From: Scleroderma bovista | Lineage: Eukaryota; Basidiomycota; Agaricomycetes; Boletales; Sclerodermataceae | Assembly: GCA_037178675.1 (NCBI GenBank) | Contig: JAYMGJ010000370.1 | Coordinates: 1-64,000 of the forward strand | Reading direction: 5' to 3' | Length of the DNA: 64,000 bases | Made by a program: the position numbers and the translations under genes | Part shown: positions 9,849 to 62,473 of the stretch, in pieces | Position numbering within the stretch: the first letter of the stretch is position 1 | Layout of the letters: every line of letters begins with the position of its first letter | The notes under the pieces: model-generated | Seen by the model: the letters and a program-made list of their open reading frames with translations, nothing else | What the model was told of the DNA's origin: nothing | The model's database searches: none

Positions 9849-9857
9849 AAATTTCTC
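9849..9857. repeat. Left target site duplication, AAATTTCTC
   Basis: This 9-bp word directly precedes the left inverted repeat and is repeated perfectly just after the right one, at 15022-15030. Confidence 0.9.
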
Positions 9858-9968
9858 TAGTCTGGATACCAGACTGTCAAAGGAGCTTGGGCAATAAGCT
9901 GTTGTTAGACAGTCTGGTAAATCTGGGTTTGAATTCATAGGGCTGCGCGGGTGGCCTGTGTCACATGA
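9858..9968 (+). repeat. Left 111-bp terminal inverted repeat
   Basis: It matches the reverse complement of 14911-15021 at 109 of 111 positions; the two differences are both T/C. The outer 60 bp hold three copies of AGTCTGG: forward at 9859-9865, inverted at 9869-9875 (together a 17-nt palindrome), and forward at 9911-9917. These look like binding sites for a transposase. The inner half is GC-richer (GGGCTGCGCGGGTGGCC). Confidence 0.95.
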
Positions 9969-10056
9969 CTTCTGGCCAATGAAACAATGCCATATTTGCA
10001 CGTGAGAAATAAAAAATATAATCAAAATCATATTGTTAAGTGACGCATCTACGTCG

Positions 10057-12204
10057 ATGTGTTCTGACGCCTCTCCTACAACAATGGACGTGTCCACCAT
10101 TAACAATACGATTATGAACAGCAACCTGGGAGCCCTCAAATACATCGCATTTCAGCTATTGGATGATCGCCTGCCCTCCGACTACATTTCAAGTCTGAAA
10201 TCTGATCAAGACAAGATAGATACACTTCGTGCATGCTTGATCGTCTATATCCTCACAGCGACGAAGATTGTACCGCGTTCTTTTCAGCTTCAAGCATCAC
10301 TCGCAACACTGAATGGCCGTGATACGATTGTAACAGCTGGTACAGGAAGTGGCAAGACTTTATGCCTACTCATTCCGCATTTACTTCGGCCAAATTCCAT
10401 CTCAATCACGATTTCGCACTCAAACATCTTCAGGCCACTCAGGTGATGTCTTCTACAATTCCTGGATTTACTTGCACACGAGACGGTGCTGTGTGAGTAG
10501 GTACGGGAGTCCCAGGCATATGGGATTAACACGATCGCGATCAATGAAGACACACCAAATGACCAAAAGCTCTGGGAGGTGAGTGTGGTCTGGTTTAAGA
10601 GTGTATCGCTAAGTGCTCTAGGCAATCCGCTCGGGCTACTACCGACATCTTCTTGTCTCACCCGAGCAACTTGGAATATATAATGGCCACCTCCCACGTC
10701 TAGCACGACTCATTCGGCAAGATCGCAGATTTGTTCAGCATATTAAGTGGGTCCATGTTGACGAGGCACATAATATCTACACAGCTGGCCTTCCACATCA
10801 CGGCAAAGAACCCTTCCGACCCACATATGGTAAACTGGATGAGTTTCATATTCTCCTTTCCAAGGGAACTCCATTTCAAGCTTTATCAGCGACACTCCCA
10901 CTTCATATACTCAGTGCTGTCAAACACGAGCTCGGCATTCAACCAGATCACCTGGCCATTCGACTTTCTGTAAATTGTCCTAACATCACATACGCTACAA
11001 CAATGATCGTTGGCGGCACGCGTAGCTTTCGTAATTTTGATTGTTTGATTCCGGCTCACTTCCACCCGCCCATGGAGATTCCGAAAACGCTGATATTCCA
11101 CGACTGCAAACAGGAAGCAACAGACGCTGCCTCATACAATGATGCTCGACTGCCACCTGGCCTCCGAAATATGGGCATTGTCAAACACTACCACAGCGAC
11201 ATGTCCACTGAATACCTTCAGCAAACATATGACAATTTTGCTTCTCCTGATGGTCGCTGTCGCATTCTTCATGCCACAGCTGGTGCCTCAACCGTAAGTG
11301 TACTCTTATATTACTGTTAAATTAAATTCCCTTCAAGGGCCTTGATATCCCTGGAGTACGCATTGTCATTCAGTATGGCATCTGCCAAAACATGTCCGAT
11401 ACTATTCAGCGTGCAGGCCGTGCCGTTCGAAATCCTGACATGGATGGTCTTTTTCTTGAAATGGTTGAACCATGGGTGCTCGACATCCCCCTTTCGAATA
11501 CAGGCCTTGATTGGAGTGATCCCGACCAGCCGAATGTTTTGCCACTGAAGAAAACTTCATCCAAGCAAGAACGGACGAGTCGTGCTTCCCTGCATTTTGT
11601 CAGATCCGAGACGTGCCTACGGGAATTCATTGCAAGATATGTTGATGACCAGACAGAGTCGGGTAGGCGAAACTAAGACACATGAACTAACTACTAATGA
11701 TTTTGAGCCTCAGCCTTTTCAGCTCGATGGTGCTGTGACCGGCACCCTGACAGCGATTTTTATCTCTCTAGATTCTTTCTTGGCAAGTTCTGCACAGGGA
11801 CACTCAGTGACGAAGACTTGGAGCCAAAGGCATCGAGCAAACGAAAACGCAGTCAGGTTCGTCAGAAGGAAGATCGTGAGCCGCTTTTGAGGAAGCTTGT
11901 GGAGTGGCGGGAGTTGGCTTGTGTGAAGAGCCCTTATGACTTAGCAATCCCAGTCTCCTGGGTTTGCAGCGACAACATACTCCAGAGACTCAGCAAAGTG
12001 CACCCAAGCCAACTTGGCTCGCTTCAAGACATCGTAGCGCTTCTTGACGAAACTGAGGAGTGGGGGGAAACAATTGGGGTGCAAATATTTGATGTCATAT
12101 GTTGCTTTGATCGGGAACAGAGTACAAAAAAGCCAGGTCGCACGAAGAGAAGTAAAGTTTCATTGTCGAAAACTGGACTGACTTTTATACATTATGTTCC
12201 GTAG
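10057..12204 (+). CDS. RecQ-like ATP-dependent DNA helicase of the transposon, one frameshift
   Basis: Five exons: 10057-10442, 10501-10578, 10622-11293, 11338-11662 and 11714-12204. Their summed length, 1,952 nt, is one base short of a whole number of codons. The frame breaks near 10417, inside the RecQ motif Ia region, where one base appears deleted; no GT site there allows an intron. Otherwise the superfamily 2 motifs are intact: Walker A TAGTGSGKT (about 10334), the DEAH box VDEAHN (about 10756), the SAT motif LSATLP, and motif VI QRAGRAVR (about 11405). The SPEQLG segment is RecQ-like. A CCD.H segment in the last exon may be a remnant zinc-binding region. The protein would be about 650 aa. 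It may unwind DNA during transposition (inference). Confidence 0.82.
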
Positions 12205-12210
12205 TCAACA

Positions 12211-14756
12211 TTATCCATCCCTGTCTTCATTGTTGTCTGCAAAGTTGAATGCCACCTCAGGGATTTCATCTTCGTCTGCCCCTGGAAGTTCACCCACCAT
12301 CAACCCCCGCACCTTTTTGTTGAATGTAGCGAGCGTTGCTGACTTCAATTTATGCTCGCCAATAGCAATTGTGTCAACCACGGGATTGATGACATCATTT
12401 TCCTTCCGCATCAGATTGAACGTACCAAGGGCAAGTTCTGAAAGCTTGTCCGCCACTCTTTTGATTGATGAAGATGTGTCAGGTGTGATGTGGCTGATGC
12501 CTTGATGTGGTGTGCCAAGCACAGACCCAACTTGTTTCCGCACGTTCTGGAGTAAGTCGACAATGACCGAGATGTCCCCAAGACGGTCCCAACTGGCATA
12601 AACACCTTTGGCAGCGTAGAAATGCTGCAAATGTTATCAGAAACCATGTAACCAGTTATGAGACAAAAATGACCTTCAAAAACTTGATGTGATGTTCGAT
12701 GTTGAGGTCTATGGCCATAGAATGGCCCTCAAAACCGCTCAGATTGACAAGCATGTTGTCACGCATGATATTTCTTATCTAAAGTGTCAGATTTGTGTGA
12801 CGGAAATCCTGAAATACTCACGCAAATTCCGGTGTCCAAACCTTTTTCAGATTATACAGAAAGTGAAGAATCTCAGTGCAGTAATTGTTGGACCCTGCAC
12901 CACGAAACATCATGCACAAGCTGCCAAGTATGTCTTCAATGCGACCAAAGTCTCCGCTGGAGCACGCTTCCACAAGCTCAAGCACAAATAAGAGGTCACG
13001 GGTCAGCACTTTAAGGTTGTGGTGTGCGTGATCACTGGCATAAGGCTCTTCGCAAATCTCTGAGTCTCCTACTGTGGGCTGTTTGTGGAATTTGTCACTT
13101 GCTGAGGGTGTGGCATGATTCCTAATGATGTGAGCAGCAATGTCGAGAAGTTTATCGGGTGATGGGCAGGATGACGCGAATGCTGCAAGGTTCGGAAATT
13201 TGCATTCAACCTTCCAAGCATTGAGTATAATGCCTTGGAGGATCTGGAGTAGTGTCGCCAACAGAGTGTGATAGTCTGGGTGTTCGCAGCCAAGGCGTAC
13301 ACGGTCAAGTAAAGCGAAGAAATACGAGAGACTGCCAACTTGATGGATTGACCCTCGGTGAACATGGAGGAGTGCCCAAATGAGATTCATACAAAGGTGA
13401 AAAAGGCCAAATCCGAGCTGTAAATTCTGGATCCGTGTGAAGGGGTTGACGTCCTTGATGCGCAGAGCCTTTGCACCACGTATCCGAGCATTTGTTGACT
13501 GGTCATTGATACTTGGAATCGCAAGTTCAGACAGCTGTGCATGGGTCATTTGCAGCTGATTGATATAGACATCGTTGATCACAGCAATGTTGCCCGTGAT
13601 GGAGCTCTCATCGATGGTTGATGTCCGCAGGGCATATTGTTTGGTACGGTGTCCCCATGGAATCTTTCGACGTTCACAATGTTGTAAGAGGGGATGGGAT
13701 CGATGTTCATACATATTGAAGGCCTTGCAATGATCAAGGAGGGCTTTGACAACGTGTACTTTAAACTGAGTCTGGAATGTGCAAAGTTGGTCCAGTGTAG
13801 GATGGATGTGAGCATTAAACGTAAGTGGAGTAGCTTGCTGAGCGCAGTGAAGGATTGGTGTGAGTGACATATGAATTGGGTTAGCATTCCAGACTTCATA
13901 GAGAATGGCGAAAGTTCCAGATTGAACCTTGGCTGGTGCTGCGGAGCGCTGCTCGACGAAGATGGATGTGCTAATATTGATATTGTCATAACATAGAATG
14001 TGGGGCCCTCGTGAGATCTGTCCTGCTATCTCAAGACAACACGACACGAGTTTATTGATGAGAGTCGAGAGAGACGTGAATGATATGCACATGCCACATT
14101 TGTGCAGCGCTTCAATGATCTGTCGAGAGGCGCCGTTTGCCCACAAAAAGAGTGTGAATGGCGCTGAGAAGAGGATGCTGTGATGGGAGCGCTGGACAGC
14201 AAGCTGCGTGACGATAACATTGCATGCCTTTCAATAAAATAATCACGTTGAGGGCAAATGCTAGGACATAGAATAACGTGCATACTGTACTACAAGACTT
14301 GACCTTATTCTTTTCCTTTGCACGGTCCGTTTGAGCTGCTGATGAAAGCACGAGACCAAGGACAGGAGCCTTTTCTTTGACAATGTTGGCAACAATTGAA
14401 TTGAGATCCTGCGTCACAAGAGATTGTGGATGGATTGTATCAATTGTTGCATATAACGCGGCCTTGACATTGTCCATCTCACGGTATACTGTGTGCGAAA
14501 CAAATTCAATTGCATGGGGAGTCATCCAAGAAGTGAACTGAGCTTGACCACGATGATCACTGTAGACGTGATCAAGTAAAGCATGTAGCTTTGATGAAGC
14601 ATAGAACCTGTCACGGTAGACTGAAAATTCCAGCTCGGATGGGTCCAGGACCTTGATGATGCAGTCGATGAGCGATAATCGACCCATACGAAGGATGCTC
14701 AATGCTTTGCGGATGCGGTCATTGGGGGACAATCGAGAGGGTGGAGGGTCAGTCAT
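12211..14756 (-). CDS. DUF6589-like protein, candidate transposase of the element
   Basis: Four exons (14756-14304, 14227-12822, 12773-12674, 12624-12211) join without a stop into 790 aa. The sequence resembles the DUF6589 family, which I recall as multicopy in Agaricomycetes. Recognisable stretches are LFLWANGASRQIIEALHKCG, ILCYDNINI (about 13990), IPSINDQSTNARIRG (about 13510), FGLFHLCMNLIWALLHVHRG and LVNLSGFEGH. The spaced acidic residues in YDN, INDQ and GCEHPDYH could form a DDE/D-type active site in an RNase H-like fold; this is speculation from pattern alone. It is the only gene in the element that is not a helicase and is intact, which favours a transposase role. Start chosen at the first ATG after the right repeat. 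Confidence 0.8.
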
Positions 14757-14910
14757 CTGCAGGATCTGCAGTTATATTTCGACAAAACGAACATTGATTT
14801 TGGGTAGGACTCACTGCAACGGCAACGAGAAACAGCTGAAGCTCGCAGGACTTAGCAGCGGTGTTATCCTATGATTATGTAAACTGTCTATGCCTTGATA
14901 TGGTTTATCG

Positions 14911-15021
14911 ATCATGTGACACGGGCCACCCGCGCAGCCCTATGAATTCAAACCCAGATTTACCAGACTGTCTAACGACAGCTTATTGCCCAAGCTCCTT
15001 TGACAGTCTGGTATCCAGACT
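14911..15021 (-). repeat. Right 111-bp terminal inverted repeat
   Basis: Inverted partner of 9858-9968 with two mismatches. It ends CCAGACTA at 15021. Upstream of the DUF6589-like gene, so it probably also supplies that gene's promoter or leader. Confidence 0.95.
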
Positions 15022-15030
15022 AAAATTTCT
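15022..15030. repeat. Right target site duplication, AAATTTCTC
   Basis: Perfect copy of the 9-bp word at 9849-9857, immediately outside the right inverted repeat. Confidence 0.9.
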
Positions 15031-15320
15031 CCCCAGTCACAAGTGCCATGGAACATGGGTTGTCAAGGTATTGAATGAACATTGATTGAACAAATACGGA
15101 TCAGATCACCTGTCCTGCATACATACACTGACCCATCTCGGAAGGCCGCAATTCATGAGGCCCATCTCCGCTACATATAAGCTCATCTCAAAGTCAGCGC
15201 GTCATCACGTGAGTGACTCTCCGCGTTCCGAGGCATTTAATTTTAATTGTGTAACCAACATAGACACTAGCTAGGCTGGGAAAATCTTCCTATCGACATC
15301 TATCACTTGCTTGAACCAGA

Positions 15321-38941: not shown

Positions 38942-41900
38942 ATGGGTCCTTCGTCGGATGCCACACAGACGATGCACCGTGGCTATCACTTCCCGCCCTC
39001 TCCCCCGCCGTCGACCCCCGAAACCGTCCACTCGTCACCGCAGACCGACCCCCTCAGCCTCCCAGATTTCCCCGGCGCGTCACCACGGCCCGCCTTCCGT
39101 CGCTCCGCGTCCCACTGGGCCACCCACGGCGACCCAGACTCACGCCCTCCACGGCCCGTTCTTCCGCGCAGTCACCGTGCCCTTACTCTCCCCTCCTCCC
39201 ACCGAGGTGCCCCCACCGATCGCTCCTTGCAGCAGCCCACCATGGCACGCAGATGCTCCTCTTCCTCGGGCTCGTCGTCCTCGGTCAGCGATTCGCCAAC
39301 CATCGCATCTCAGCCCCTCCCCAGTGCAGGCATAGGTCGCAAGGTCGCAGAGTCTCTCCAACTCTTCAAAGAATCCGCCCCTCCCACTATCACCGATACA
39401 TGGGACATTCCCGATACAGATAACCCCCCCGGGCCCCGCCGGCTTTCTACGTCCCACCATCCCGACAATGTCGCCGAGGCGAAGTACGAATTTGTCAAGC
39501 GCGCAGACTGGCCTGATCCCGAAACGGCTGCTATTCGGAGAGAGCGTAGTTCGGCCACCTTGGACCATGTCAGAACTCTCGAGGCAATGATGCAGCAGCA
39601 CAACGCCAGAGACGCTGACATGGCCAGCGAACAAACTAACCGTGATCCCACCGTCAGTGATCCGCCTCCGTGGCGTCGAGACATCGCCTCATATCAAGAG
39701 CCTTTCACACGTGGTCGACGCCGAGAACGCGTCCCCGATGTCCCTGTTTTTGGCACCCCTCCGTCGCCTTGTATTCGCCCACACTCTCGAGGGTATCCAC
39801 CATCCCCGTCCCCGTCCCGCTGCCCCACCAACCGTATCCCCCCTCTGGCTCTCTATAACCTCTCTCCGCCCCGCGATGCCACTCCACCCCAGCACCACAC
39901 TCCTGAAGCCCAGGATCCCGAGTCGTTGCGGCCACACTTACCACCACATATCCTATCTCCATATACATCACCAGCCATTTCTCCACCGCCGCCGCTCATT
40001 TCGTCTGCCCACCGGCCCTATTCGCCGTATTCCACAGACGACGAATCCGCCTGGGAAACGTCATCCATCGCTTCAGATGCTTCTACCACCACAGGGACCT
40101 CAGAGCAGCCTGTTTCTGCGCTCGCGTTTCCATCCCTTTCCCTCCACGGGAATCAGGATATCAATCATTCGCTGTCCCAATCAAAGGAGTTCCTGGATGA
40201 CCCTGCCACATGGAACGAGGATCATTTGAATATGACATTTAGCGACTCCCAGGAAAGTCTGCCGCATATACCTCTCCGTCCTTTTCGCAACCAGGTCGGT
40301 GGCCATAGTGCCCTATACAAGTTTACCAAAAGAGCACTCTGCAAGGTGAGATTGATTGGCGCTTCCGTGAACAATGTAGATTCACCTCGTCGTCAGCCTC
40401 TGGTTTCACGCGAAAACCAGTTTTATGAAGCGGTAGAACGGGAAGCACCGCCATTGCTCGGATTTATTCCACGATACCTCGGAGTTATGTTGGTAACCTA
40501 CAGACGCGTGCCAAAGGGCGCGTCTACGCCACCCACCACAGCTCATCCCGCCCCTCCGACAACCCATGCCTCCATTCCCTGTCGTTCCCATTGGGAACCC
40601 CGCGTCGGTCGCCGAAATGATTCCTCCCTCCCACCAAGCTTACCAGAGGAAGACGCCGGTGGGGATACAGACACAGGTGAGGCAGAGATGCCTGAAGTGG
40701 TTCTCCATCGCAATCGGCACATCGTCCCCACAAAGTGGATGCTCCGCATGGACAGCTTGCGAAACCGTTCCTATCCCCACCCGTACTCCTCTTCCCCCTC
40801 TCTCGTCACCCGAGATCGTTTGAATCCATCGCAGCTCAGCGCTACAGCGTCCACTCCAGCTCTGACACTAAATGAGCGGTCCCCAGTTTTAAAGCGTGGT
40901 CGTCTTTCTCGGCAAGCGACGATCACAGACGAACCGTCTTCCTTGCTCTCCAATTCGTCCCTTCCCCCATCTTCATATCCTCCGGACATGAGGTCCACAC
41001 CAAGGGCACTGGGCGGCATGGTTAAACCACAGGACCTGCGTCAGTTCTACTCCGAACCAAGTATTGCGCAGCAGCCGACATCGAGCTGGTTCGGAGGGAC
41101 TGGATCGACGACCGTGAACACCAAGCTGAGAGACCACGTCTTCAATACCATCCTGCGCCGCTTCCAACGTCGTGGTAAGCGCCACTCGTCCTCCAGCGGC
41201 ACCAAGACCGAAGACGAGAACGAAAGTGACCTTGTTCGTGAGGGCCACGTCAGGTGTACAGCCACTGCCACGTCTTGTTCGTCTTGCCGCCTGGGGCATG
41301 TCGAGCCGATGAAACACGAAGAATTGACACATGCGACCTCGGTCATTCGTCGAGTACAGAGCGATGGTGCGATGGACGGAAAAGATGGACAGGATTCCAC
41401 TGTTGACCTAGATTACAATGAACTGGGTGGCTGTAATGGGCGAGCATCGCGGGAGAAAGAACTTCAGCCTGGGCCCTATTTGCAGCGCCGAAGGAGTCGC
41501 TCGCGCTCGCTTGACTTCTCTGCCCAGATGCATCCATTCTCGAGTAGACCGCTGTCCTTCCCCCGTAATGACGATTCGATCACACGTCAACATCATTTTA
41601 TCCTCATGGAGGACCTCACTGGTCGGTTGAAGCATTCTTGTGTACTTGACTTGAAGATGGGGACGCGCCAATATGGGATGGACGCGACGTCATCGAAAAA
41701 GAAAAGCCAGCGGAAGAAGTGTGATCGCACGACCAGCCGACCTCTTGGTGTTCGGGTATGTGGTATGCAGGTAGGGTGTTTGACGGCTTGCATGTATTTA
41801 TCGAGCGCGTATTGACTTGCTGGCTCCGAAGGTGTGGAACCATGTCACCCAATCTTATGTGACACAAGACAAATACAGCGGACGTGACATTCGTGCGGAA

Positions 41901-55110: not shown

Positions 55111-56677
55111 TTATCGTTGATTGTCAGCACGATTAAGCTCTTCAGTTAACAGATCGTTGACAGCCTTTGGGTTGTCCATATACACTAGAATACAGTTGTG
55201 GAACTCCGTTACTGGAAATGGGTAGAAAACGTACCATGATGTCCCGCACCGGGGATGACGAGCATTCGTCCGTTACGGTTACCAGCTTCACGAAGCTTCT
55301 CGAGGGACTGTAGTCCCCCAAGGGGGTCCATCCAATCGTGCTCCCCATCTGTACATGTAGCAGTCAGGGTCAGATCGAAAGATCATACCGGATATACGCA
55401 CAGACAAATGTGATGGGTATCTTGAGGGCGGATATCCTATCCACTAGAGGCATGCGAGCGTGTGCAAAAGGTGCAAGAATGTGAGCTGGAGTGGGATAAA
55501 TGAGATGGTGGACCATGCATGTCACAAGACAGGATCACGAACATATACAATATTCGCTGGATCCTTTCGCAAGGGTAATATTGAGGAGATATTCGTGCAA
55601 GTCGCGTACCTCATCCTCAGCGAGCGCAGGAAAACGGCGGCTAGAGTACTGGAAGCTTAGAGTCAGCGAGCAAACACAGGATGGCAATGAACAAGCTGTA
55701 CTTTGCCGACCAGCATAGGCCCCCAGAAGAGTGTGGATCGCACCACCTGGAATGGACTCCATCCCTCTTCCCACAGATAGGTGATCAATTTCTCCACTCG
55801 ACTTTCCTGTCTCTTAGTACTCTGTTCTTTCCGAATACGCCTGACTTGAGCACCACCAGCCGGTACTGCCGGATCACTGACAGAACTGGCGGCATCTCCC
55901 GTGTCAGTCCATTCTCTGGAAGGCGTGGTAAGGTTATTTGGATCATGCGGGACACCGGCGGGAGACAAGAGGATGAGTTTGTGCACACGTGTTGGATAGC
56001 GTAGCGCATATGCGACGCTGAAATAAGCCCCTAGGGAGTGACCGATCAAGGTCATCTTGTCCAGCCCCATCTTGTCCCTCCACTCTTCTAGTGAGTTGAC
56101 AAAGAATGACTCTGCTTCGCGGACACGACCGGTTATATCGTCGCGTTTTGCTTTAACGTGGAAAGGGACACGCGCGGACCGACCCATACCAAGCCAGTCG
56201 AGGGCATAAATGTCCGTACCTCTGTGGCCAGCCCATGTAGCGAGCGAAGGATAATTAGGGAAAAAGAATCCTATGCCTGCACCATAGCCATGTAGGACAA
56301 CTGCGGGAGGTGGTGCGGCCGGAGACGGTGACAAGGACTTTATGGACAGCGTATTAAGGTAGTGCTTTGGAGTTGCAAGGTCTACTCGTTCGGTGCGCGC
56401 AATGACAGGACTGTCGCCAGCAGAGGAAGTGGGCATCTTCTCGGGAACAAAGAAAGGCAGACGCCTGGATGATACGTTAGTCACGGGTGGGGACATGGGC
56501 CGTAGGTTCTTTACCTCAGGAGGCGTTCCTCCGCGGCGGCACTTTGCTTCTCGCCTGCATGCCACCTGTACATGATCAGCGCAGGCTCCACAGCGTTGAG
56601 AGGGCGACTTACCAGCTTTTGAGACTGGCGGTGAAGGTGACGGGGATATCTCTTGCGGGTGGAATGGAGGAGGACAT
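55111..56677 (-). CDS. CLD1: Cld1/ABHD4-5-like alpha/beta hydrolase (mitochondrial cardiolipin phospholipase type)
   Basis: About seven exons. The first (MSSSIPPARDIPVTFTASLKSW) joins WHAGEKQSAAAEERLLRRLPFFVPE, typical of this family. The hydrolase core has VVLHGYGAG (oxyanion HG), DWLGMGRS, the nucleophile elbow GHSLGAY, LLSPAGVP, later GEHDWMDPLGG with the acid, and GAGHHVYMDNP with the catalytic His, which also forms the HxxxxD acyltransferase motif. In ABHD5 the nucleophile is Asn; here it is Ser, so an active lipase like yeast Cld1 (deacylates cardiolipin in the inner mitochondrial membrane) is favoured. Target and location are inferred. Divergent from CWC21. Confidence 0.87.
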
Positions 56678-56776
56678 TGGTGAGGAGGACGGTCGTGTGT
56701 GTATAAATATAGTAACCCATGCCGAGGATTGCGTGGGTGCCGTTTCAAAGTCCGCACTTGCTCTCTCAGCCACACC
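56678..56776. promoter_or_regulatory. Short divergent promoter region CLD1 / CWC21
   Basis: 99 bp between start codons. It contains TATAAATATA at about 56701-56710, which could act as a TATA box for one side. Confidence 0.5.
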
Positions 56777-57961
56777 ATGTACAACGGAATTGGGCTGACC
56801 ACTCCTCGTGGGAGGTGCGTCTCTGGAACGCTCGGGTTGCGTGTATCTGACAAATTTTCATCAGTGGCACAAATGGCTATGTCCAGCGCAATCTTTCCGC
56901 ACTGCGGGCACACCAAACACCGACCGACCGTGCAGGAGCTTGGGACATCGCCCCGCCAAAACACAGAGAGCCCGACCAAGCCATTCTCGAGCACGAGAAG
57001 AAACGAAAAGTGGAAGTTAAGTGTCTGGAGTTACAACTGCAGCTTGAGGAGGATGGGTGTGTACTTGCTCTGTTGTTCAACTGCCAGCTTATACTGACCT
57101 GGATTCAGATTGGATGATACAGAAATCGAGGTAAAAGTCCAGGAATTGCGAGAAAAGCTCAATGCGGATCTTGCATCGTTTTCAACGTCCGTGAAAAGTT
57201 TGAAGCCTTCTGACACTCATGCTATCGCTGCTGCGAAGAAGACCGAACTCGACAAAATGGCACGTGCACTTGGAACCAAGAGAGACTACGTCGAGGGAGA
57301 TGCGTTTGACCGTGAGAAGCAAGAAGAAAACAAGTTGCGCCGTATGACGGAGCGCGAGGATCGCGAGAGGAAGAGAGTCGAGGACCGTGCTAGGATGCAA
57401 GAGCAGCGCGAAAAATGGCAGGCAGAGCAAAGGGAAAGGGAGAGGCGGAGAAGAAGAGAAGAGGACAGGATCAGAAGGGAGCAGCAGGAGAGAAACCGGG
57501 AGAGGCCACGAGAACGAGACAGGAGTCGGGACAGAGAGTATCGGGAAAGGGACAGGGATGACAGAGACTACCGGAGAAGAGATCGCATGCCGCCGCCGCC
57601 GCCTCCACCCCGTCGTCGTCATCGATCGCCTTCCAGTTCACCACCCCCTCCTCCACGGCGATCCCCTCTTCCTTCACCGCCTCACCGTCCCCTCGAACGA
57701 TCCGAGTCGCCTGCCAGACGCCATCGTTCACGTTCTCCACCTGCGCATCACACTCGTAATCGATCCGATTCTCCACCGCCCCGCCGAGCCCGTGACCACT
57801 CCCGCGACTATGACAGTGATGATCGGGATGATGTGCGAGCTCGTGACCTTTCGCATTCTCCTAGACCGCCTAGCGACCTTGGCCGCTCTCGCTCACCGTC
57901 CACCGGTTCATCCATGTCGGTCAGCACAACTCGTAGTCGATCGGGAAGTCGCAGTGACTAA
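56777..57961 (+). CDS. CWC21: Pre-mRNA splicing factor Cwc21 (SRRM2 family)
   Basis: Three exons. [24 protein letters not shown] is the near-invariant N-terminus of Cwc21/SRm300. The cwf21 domain follows (ILEHEKKRKVEVKCLELQ..LED.G.. EIEVKVQELREKL). The rest is an Arg/Glu-rich helix and then RS/SP repeats (RDRSRDREYRERDRD, SPPPPPRRSP, RSRSPP), ending in Ser-Arg. Cwc21 binds Prp8 and Snu114 near the exon channel of the spliceosome. The RS tail is longer than in yeast, nearer to animal SRRM2. The two introns lie inside the conserved N-terminus. Confidence 0.93.
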
Positions 57962-60269: not shown

Positions 60270-62473
60270 ATGGAAAGACTTTCGGCCATATCTCGGTTCA
60301 AGAATCTCTGCCCGTTCTTGGGGAGGACGCAGACCTCTACCCTGCGCACTCTATGCACTTCTGCTTCTCCTAGATTCCCCTCTCTGTCTTGCCTTACCGA
60401 GAGCGCCACCAAGTGTCCTGTTATGGGGCCAGCCCTACAGATGCGCTCTACCCAGCTCGTTGCCGGGTACGCCAGCGTTGCTGGCCAAGAAGATGTCCAG
60501 AAAATTCACCACAGGAAGGGAATTTTCCCAGGTGACCGTGTCACCGATGCCGACATTGCCAAATGCCCGCATGCTTCTGCTGCCCGTGCCGCTGCACGTA
60601 TGGCTGATGAGGTTGCAGCGGCGGCCAACGAAGGAACTTCTGCAAAGGAGAACAAGGCTGCGGCAGGGGGATGCCCATTTCATAAGACTGGCGCTACCAC
60701 TGCTAAGCCTGTCGCTAAGCAGGACAAGGATTCTAAACCCAGCGTACTCAAGGCTCCCACCCCCGAAACATTTCGCTATGAGCAATTTTATGCGACAGAA
60801 CTGGAGAAAAAGCATAAGGACCAGTCCTATCGTTATTTCAATAACATCAATAGACTTGCACCCAAGTTTCCCGTCGCTCATACGGCGAACGTCAAAGACG
60901 AGGTCGAGGTGTGGTGCGCCAACGACTACCTTGGAATGGGCAATAATCCAGTTGTCCTGGAGACCATGCAGTTCGTCCTCAGTGTAGCGCAACTTTGATC
61001 ATACTCATTTTTATTTACAGTCGGACCTTAGACCGATATGGAGCGGGGGCAGGCGGTACCCGAAACATTGCCGGAAATAGTGCCTTGCACCTTAGTCTCG
61101 AGAAGGAGCTTGCTTCCCTCCACCGGAAGCCCGCCTCCCTTGTATTTTCATCCTGTTATGTAGCCAATGATGCCACTCTGTCGACTCTTGGCTCCAAAAT
61201 ACCTGGCCTTGTCTACTTTTCGGATGCATCCAATCATGCATCTATGATTCAAGGAATCCGTCACTCTGGCGCGAAAAAGGTCATTTTCAAGCACAACGAC
61301 CTTGAGGACCTCGAGTCTAAATTAAAAATGTGGCCCCCCGAGACTCCCAAGATCATCGCATTTGAAAGCGTCTATTCTATGTGCGGCAGCATAGGGCCTA
61401 TTAAGGAGATTTGCGACCTAGCTGACAAGTACGGTGCATTGACCTTCCTGGATGAAGTTCACGCCGTTGGGCTGTACGGCCCACGAGGTGCCGGAGTAGC
61501 CGAACATCTTGATTTTGAAGCCCATCACAAGGCTGGTCAGAACCCGGAGGCTATAAAGGGTAGTGTTATGGATCGTGTAGACATCATCACCGGTAAGTAT
61601 AAAAAAAGGTGTAAAAGTTGTCCCGCTAATCCACCCTCAAAAGGCACTTTGGGCAAGGCGTATGGAACTGTTGGGGGCTATGTTGCTGGTTCCAAGGACT
61701 TCATCGATATGATTAGGTCTTACGCTCCCGGTTTTATCTTTACCACCTCCCTCCCACCTGCTACTGTTGCTGGCGCTCGCTCGTCCGTCATTTACCAGAT
61801 GCATCACATGGGTGACCGTGCCCTGAAACAAGTCAACGTTCGGAATGTTAAAGAACGGCTCGCCGCCCTTGACATTCCCGTTGTTCCTGGTCCTTCTCAT
61901 ATCATTCCAGTTCTCGTCGGTGATGCTGGCTTAGCCAAGGCGGCTAGTGATAAACTCCTTTTGGAACACAGCATCTACGTTCAAGCTATCAATTATCCTA
62001 CAGTGGCTGTTGGCGAGGAGCGCTTGAGGGTTACCGTTACGCCTCGTCACACATCTGAACAAATCGACGGACTCGTTAAAGCCCTTGATATAGTCTTCAC
62101 TGATCTGAATATTAACCGGGTCAGAGACTGGGTCGAGCTAGGTGGACGCGCCAATGTCGGGGTTACTCAAGCTGCTACAGTCAAACCGATCTGGACCGAC
62201 GCTCAGATTAACGTGGCGGGGAAGCAGAAGACACTGCGAAACGGACAAAGGGCGGTGATCAACGCTCAGGCAGTCCAGACTGTTCGCGATGAGTTCGAGG
62301 ACCTGTTGGGACCTATTGAGATGACCGAGGTGGGAAAGAGGACGGAGGAGGCGTTGTTTACAGGCGCAATGGATTTGACAGCAGCCAGACTCAAGAGCAT
62401 TTCTCGTCGCACCTATTCACCTGTTGCTCGTATTGAAGTTCCACGGGCTGTACAGGCTGCTGTTGCTGCTTAG
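60270..62473 (+). CDS. HEM1: 5-aminolevulinate synthase, mitochondrial
   Basis: Three exons (60270-60970, 61021-61592, 61644-62473) give 700 aa. The presequence is Ser/Arg-rich. Three Cys-Pro heme-regulatory-type motifs occur before the catalytic core: KCPVMG, KCPHAS and GGCPFH. The core has [76 protein letters not shown] and [12 protein letters not shown] with the PLP lysine. The enzyme condenses glycine and succinyl-CoA, the first step of heme synthesis. The second intron is 51 nt and has no in-frame stop, so its retention would add 17 residues immediately before the PLP-lysine segment. Confidence 0.96.

Follow-up and report, generated by a model that had tools for sequence, protein, structure and literature searches.

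Helicase-bearing DNA transposons of fungi

AcademH is reportedly the lineage described by Kojima in 2020 (Mob DNA 11:15), as citing papers have it. According to the passages that concern it in PMC10045372, this lineage of fungal and animal DNA transposons, published in 2020, encodes a helicase and produces target site duplications (TSDs) of 9 or 10 bp, whereas those of AcademX measure 3 or 4 bp, a difference tied there to the nuclease of AcademX and the helicase of AcademH. PMC10799480 places it, at low copy number, in Basidiomycota, Ascomycota and Mucoromycota, and an element called Academ-2 was annotated by repeat software in Phlebopus portentosus, of the Boletales, as stated in a section of PMC12411881. 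A RecQ helicase also characterizes KolobokH, a type of Kolobok that is reported only from fungi in the excerpts available, where the Kolobok TSD is TTAA (4 bp) and a C/DxxH motif between the second D and the E is common to Kolobok, hAT, P, MuDR and Dada. The present analysis concerns an element that pairs a DUF6589 protein with a RecQ-like helicase in a 64,000-bp stretch of the Scleroderma bovista genome (contig JAYMGJ010000370.1, positions 1 to 64,000; hereafter the window). With good confidence, this element is assigned to the class II (DNA) transposons and, within the Academ superfamily, to AcademH, with DUF6589 as its DDE (RNase H-fold) transposase.

Structure of the element

The element extends from 9858 to 15022 and is bounded by terminal inverted repeats (TIRs) of 111 bp each, whose arms match at 109 of 111 positions; inside lie two convergent genes, the helicase on the plus strand and DUF6589 on the minus strand. 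Its parts are as follows:

9849-9857, no strand: left TSD copy, AAATTTCTC, a perfect 9-bp duplication
9858-9968, plus strand: left TIR, starting with TAGTCTGGATACCAGACT, itself a short palindrome
10084..12204, plus strand: gene of a RecQ-like superfamily 2 (SF2) helicase, five exons by manual reading, one frame interruption
10084-~10446, 10501-10578, 10622-11293, 11338-11662 and 11723-12204, plus strand: helicase exons, manual reading
12211..14756, minus strand: gene of the 790-aa DUF6589 protein, a predicted DDE transposase
14756-14304, 14227-12822, 12773-12674 and 12624-12211, minus strand: DUF6589 exons, with three GT...AG introns spliced by hand
14912-15022, minus strand: right TIR, final bases AGACTA
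15023-15031, no strand: right TSD copy, AAATTTCTC, a perfect 9-bp duplication

An earlier sequence-only reading of this DNA had recognized the 111-bp repeats with their 109 matches, the perfect 9-bp duplication outside them (here found as the same nine bases on both sides) and two genes, a helicase with DEAH and QRAGRAVR motifs and a 790-aa DUF6589 protein. All of this was confirmed: both motifs were read in the plus-strand gene, the spliced DUF6589 gene yields exactly 790 aa, and its largest open piece matches Pfam DUF6589 (E 2.9e-81). The start at 9858 was also correct; the end, placed at 15021, fell one base short. That reading overlooked the interrupted helicase frame and the fact that the element is not unique in the genome.

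The extreme ends (9858-9876 and the right arm) consist of a short palindrome, AGTCTGG ATA CCAGACT, that could form a hairpin; it recurs with another centre (TGA) in two short elements considered below (L044 and L051).

When four pieces of the window helicase were compared with Pfam, one exceeded the DEAD cut-off (4.9e-7), and matches to Helicase_C, RecQ_Zn_bind and HRDC were found only below the cut-offs. The frame is broken once, as judged by eye, at about 10,410-10,446, between the ATP-binding motif and the DEAH box, and, barring an assembly error at that place, this interruption has probably left the window copy with an inactive helicase. An uninterrupted copy of 674 aa at locus L017 matches RecQ structures (E 6.5e-13), lies above the Pfam cut-offs for DEAD and Helicase_C, and reaches 7.8e-27 against NCBIfam RecQ models, under their curated cut-offs. 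By sequence, the element helicase is RecQ-like without being orthologous to any named RecQ. A RecQ paper (PMC4522978) was set aside, the part of it available dealing with subtelomeric genes, an unrelated subject.

Copies, target site duplications and empty sites

The host genome (51.8 Mb in 850 contigs) contains at least 16 matches to the TIR, the two arms of the element included, and at least 54 matches to DUF6589, grouped by position into about 27 loci with the window among them, which is a lower bound; 24 of the 27 were read. The ends of the elements read TAGTCT...AGACTA, and 89 such end pairs, from all fetched loci from L017 onward and from the window, were examined for TSDs. All nine flanking bases agreed at 11 of the 89 pairs, where 0.0003 would be expected under equal base use, and eight of nine at a single one (L035); in a control with one side shifted, eight of nine was reached in one of 4272 comparisons. 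The perfect duplications belong to the window, L017, L024, L029, L030, L033, L034, L036 and the short elements L043, L044 and L051, and their 9-bp sequence varies among copies. Because 11 of 89 pairs carry such a duplication, the window element is regarded as mobile and as a member of a family whose copies have transposed in this genome. Near-identical copies at separate places (L029/L030, 99.3%; L035/L036, 99.0%; L033/L034, 98.8%) point to recent movement.

Empty sites were sought by comparing the joined flanks of nine inserted copies with the same genome, 40 of 218 candidates being scored. An empty or paralogous insert-free site was found for five of the nine (L030, L034, L024, L033 and L029). 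For L030 all 300 of the 300 joined flank bases are identical on another contig (G000:C678:16511-16810, L037), which suggests that the insertion is very recent or that the assembly includes a second nucleus; identity is 97% for L034 and 93% for L024. L033 and L029 are inserted in multi-copy repeats, of which at least 7 (95-98%) and at least 21 (85-95%) listed copies, respectively, cross the junction. The 9-bp target is single at the aligned empty sites, with the L029 paralogue differing at two of the nine bases. The candidate for L017 (83%, with gaps at the site) is ambiguous, and no empty site appeared for the window copy, L035 or L036 among the candidates scored in this genome.

Short derivatives share these properties. 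L043 (970 bp) has both ends of the window family at 83-92% identity and a perfect 9-bp TSD, its genes being absent; L044 (1,131 bp) and L051 (1,116 bp) have the terminal motif as well, at 72-75% identity, and are likewise bordered by perfect 9-bp TSDs.

Among the 24 DUF6589 loci read, ends together with a TSD were made out at nine, leaving 15 without. L018 and L032 have good ends without a TSD, and ends were not made out at ten of the 24. A third DUF6589 group (L022, L023 and L026) has long inverted repeats of 239, 208 and 82 bp, the last running to the contig end, which terminate differently from TAGTCT and for which no TSD was made out. The left flank of L036 (1568-1717) resembles, by eye, part of another transposase gene, and this insertion may sit inside another transposon.

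DUF6589 as a predicted transposase and its helicase partner

AlphaFold models of two diverged DUF6589 branches gave structural matches to Hermes, the P element, ISCth4, Transib and RAG1, the nearest solved folds being hAT and P element, with 6-10% identity in structural alignments with the hAT (Hermes) and P element transposases. A D/D/E triad is conserved (D231, D393 and E646 in the window protein), and the Pfam model starts C-terminal to its first D. An alternative third residue, E606 (YCTE), was rejected, Y being present in 24 of 24 type B rows, and E649 was taken instead. With Foldseek, the PDB yielded weak matches and no strong ones, the first four being RAG1, and the viral models a single weak match, a protein with a hAT domain (E 3.5e-3). 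The alignments of the two branches, run as sequence profiles against the PDB, found no match up to E 10. No row named Academ occurs in any of the structure-match lists, which excludes nothing. On these predicted structures, DUF6589 is very probably the transposase of the elements.

The C/DxxH motif is absent at the invariant H445 (C or D three positions before it in 0 of 40 sequences), and at 553-556 DxxH occurs in 12 of 16 type A and in 0 of 24 type B sequences. Since those 12 type A sequences carry it, the motif was dropped as an argument against KolobokH and Mutator-like elements (MULEs).

Helicase segments, located with profiles grown from the pieces of the window helicase, adjoin DUF6589 in 20 of the 24 loci read and are convergent with it every time; the remaining loci are L021, L031 (a truncated copy), L046 and L047, and L033 retains the first helicase segment only. 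The sequence-only reading had proposed to look for further copies of the repeats, whose absence would have refuted it but which do recur in this genome, and for DUF6589 loci with a RecQ neighbour, inverted repeats and 9-bp duplications; the neighbour proved usual, and the ends with duplication held for the minority of loci given above. In public proteins of other Agaricomycetes, at least 20 DUF6589/helicase pairs come from the same species and from contigs of equal size (best 120 of 345 DUF6589 matches against 114 helicase rows), a 21st being discounted as joining different sources. Equal size is taken to mean the same contig, which on long contigs is weak evidence of closeness, and some pairs have neighbouring gene numbers (Coprinellus NMY22_g2257/g2258, Suillus luteus 24807/24809). 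A RecQ-like helicase is thereby supported as the usual partner of DUF6589. The named DUF6589 relatives among the matches listed (best 120 of 345 and best 120 of 162) are Basidiomycota, which we take to be Agaricomycetes, the closest presumably belonging to the Boletales.

Proposed mechanism and significance

The ends, TSDs, multiple copies, empty sites, gene pairing, predicted fold and conserved triad observed here are the basis of the following proposal. The DUF6589 transposase would bind the TAGTCT...AGACTA ends, cut the element free and insert it into a target at positions staggered by 9 bp, the fill-in of which would give the TSD; movement would be cut-and-paste and not replicative. From its linkage, the convergent RecQ-like helicase would work together with the transposase, its most likely task being to open either the palindromic ends or the product of strand transfer while transposition and repair take place. 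Internally deleted derivatives (miniature inverted-repeat transposable elements, MITEs) would be moved in trans, as their shared ends and 9-bp TSDs suggest. In the window copy the transposase gene is still open, beside a helicase that is probably broken.

DUF6589 is a widespread "unknown" of mushroom genomes, labelled hypothetical protein in databases. If it is shown to be part of a DDE transposase, such genes could be removed from host gene counts, and what the RecQ partner does in transposition would become testable. The transposon type itself is probably already known; what did not turn up in the open-access papers searched is the equation of DUF6589 with a transposase. None of those papers mentions DUF6589, and a search for PF20231 gave one spurious match, an unrelated physics paper; Repbase may already hold such proteins under Academ names.

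Elsewhere the window carries ordinary genes, among them an inositol polyphosphate kinase (38942-41812), an alpha/beta hydrolase (55666-56994) and a class I/II aminotransferase (60995-62470).

Alternative readings and comparison with known systems

The best surviving alternative, to which we give a low probability, is a superfamily distinct from AcademH that independently joined a DDE transposase (DUF6589), a RecQ-like helicase and 9-bp TSDs. Its transposases would fall into two or more deeply separated branches (15-20% identity) with shared TAGTCT...AGACTA ends, and it would explain the expansions of DUF6589 in Agaricomycetes. In its favour, Academ transposase sequences lay outside the comparison and the papers searched are silent on DUF6589; that hAT and P element come closest among solved structures says little, no row named Academ having been listed. 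However, the kind of helicase, the length of the TSD and the occurrence in fungi all agree with AcademH, as far as the part of its published description available goes.

A MULE is very unlikely. Long TIRs and 9-bp TSDs are features of MULEs that resemble the elements described here, but a Pfam scan of one representative per DUF6589 branch (P0002 and P0128) found DUF6589 and one sub-threshold chance match, with no MULE domain, and on this content the reading was rejected; nor are MULEs known for a RecQ partner. Still less probable is the chance capture of two host genes, DUF6589 and RecQ, between MITE-like repeats: a probably broken window helicase and the 15 loci lacking made-out ends with a TSD would fit it, but the convergent pair recurs across loci and on equal-size contigs of other species, and DUF6589 has the predicted fold and residues of a transposase. 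KolobokH, the least probable of all, shares a fungal host and a RecQ helicase with these elements but was rejected on TSD length, its TTAA of 4 bp not being seen here, where TSDs are of 9 bp and varied sequence, and DxxH, present in 12 of the 16 type A sequences, is found in none of the 24 type B sequences at the place concerned.

The hAT (Hermes) and P elements, although nearest in fold, differ in their TSDs of 8 bp and are not known to carry a RecQ helicase, unlike the 9-bp TSDs and RecQ-like partner found here. Academ-2 of Phlebopus portentosus is alike in being an Academ-type annotation in the Boletales, presumably the order of the closest named DUF6589 relatives; the likeness is one of annotation label, the available part of the source giving it without domain structure.

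By its features the AcademH assignment is very likely though not proven, the transposases being compared by description. Regarding the sequence-only reading, its TIR transposon with DUF6589 as a very probable transposase and a RecQ-like helicase as usual partner is supported, but its undescribed family is not supported, nor is its statement that no published TIR superfamily has this pair, since AcademH (2020) has a helicase and TSDs of 9 or 10 bp in the passages available (PMC10045372). No difference from AcademH emerged in the features compared, a comparison in which transposase sequences had no part. As in AcademH, there is a helicase partner, here RecQ-like and present in 20 of 24 loci; the TSDs are of 9 bp, perfect at 11 of 89 end pairs and with the target single at empty sites; the transposase is of the DDD/E type by predicted fold and D/D/E conservation; and the elements occur at low copy (some 27 loci with DUF6589, a lower bound, in a genome of 51.8 Mb) in a basidiomycete host.
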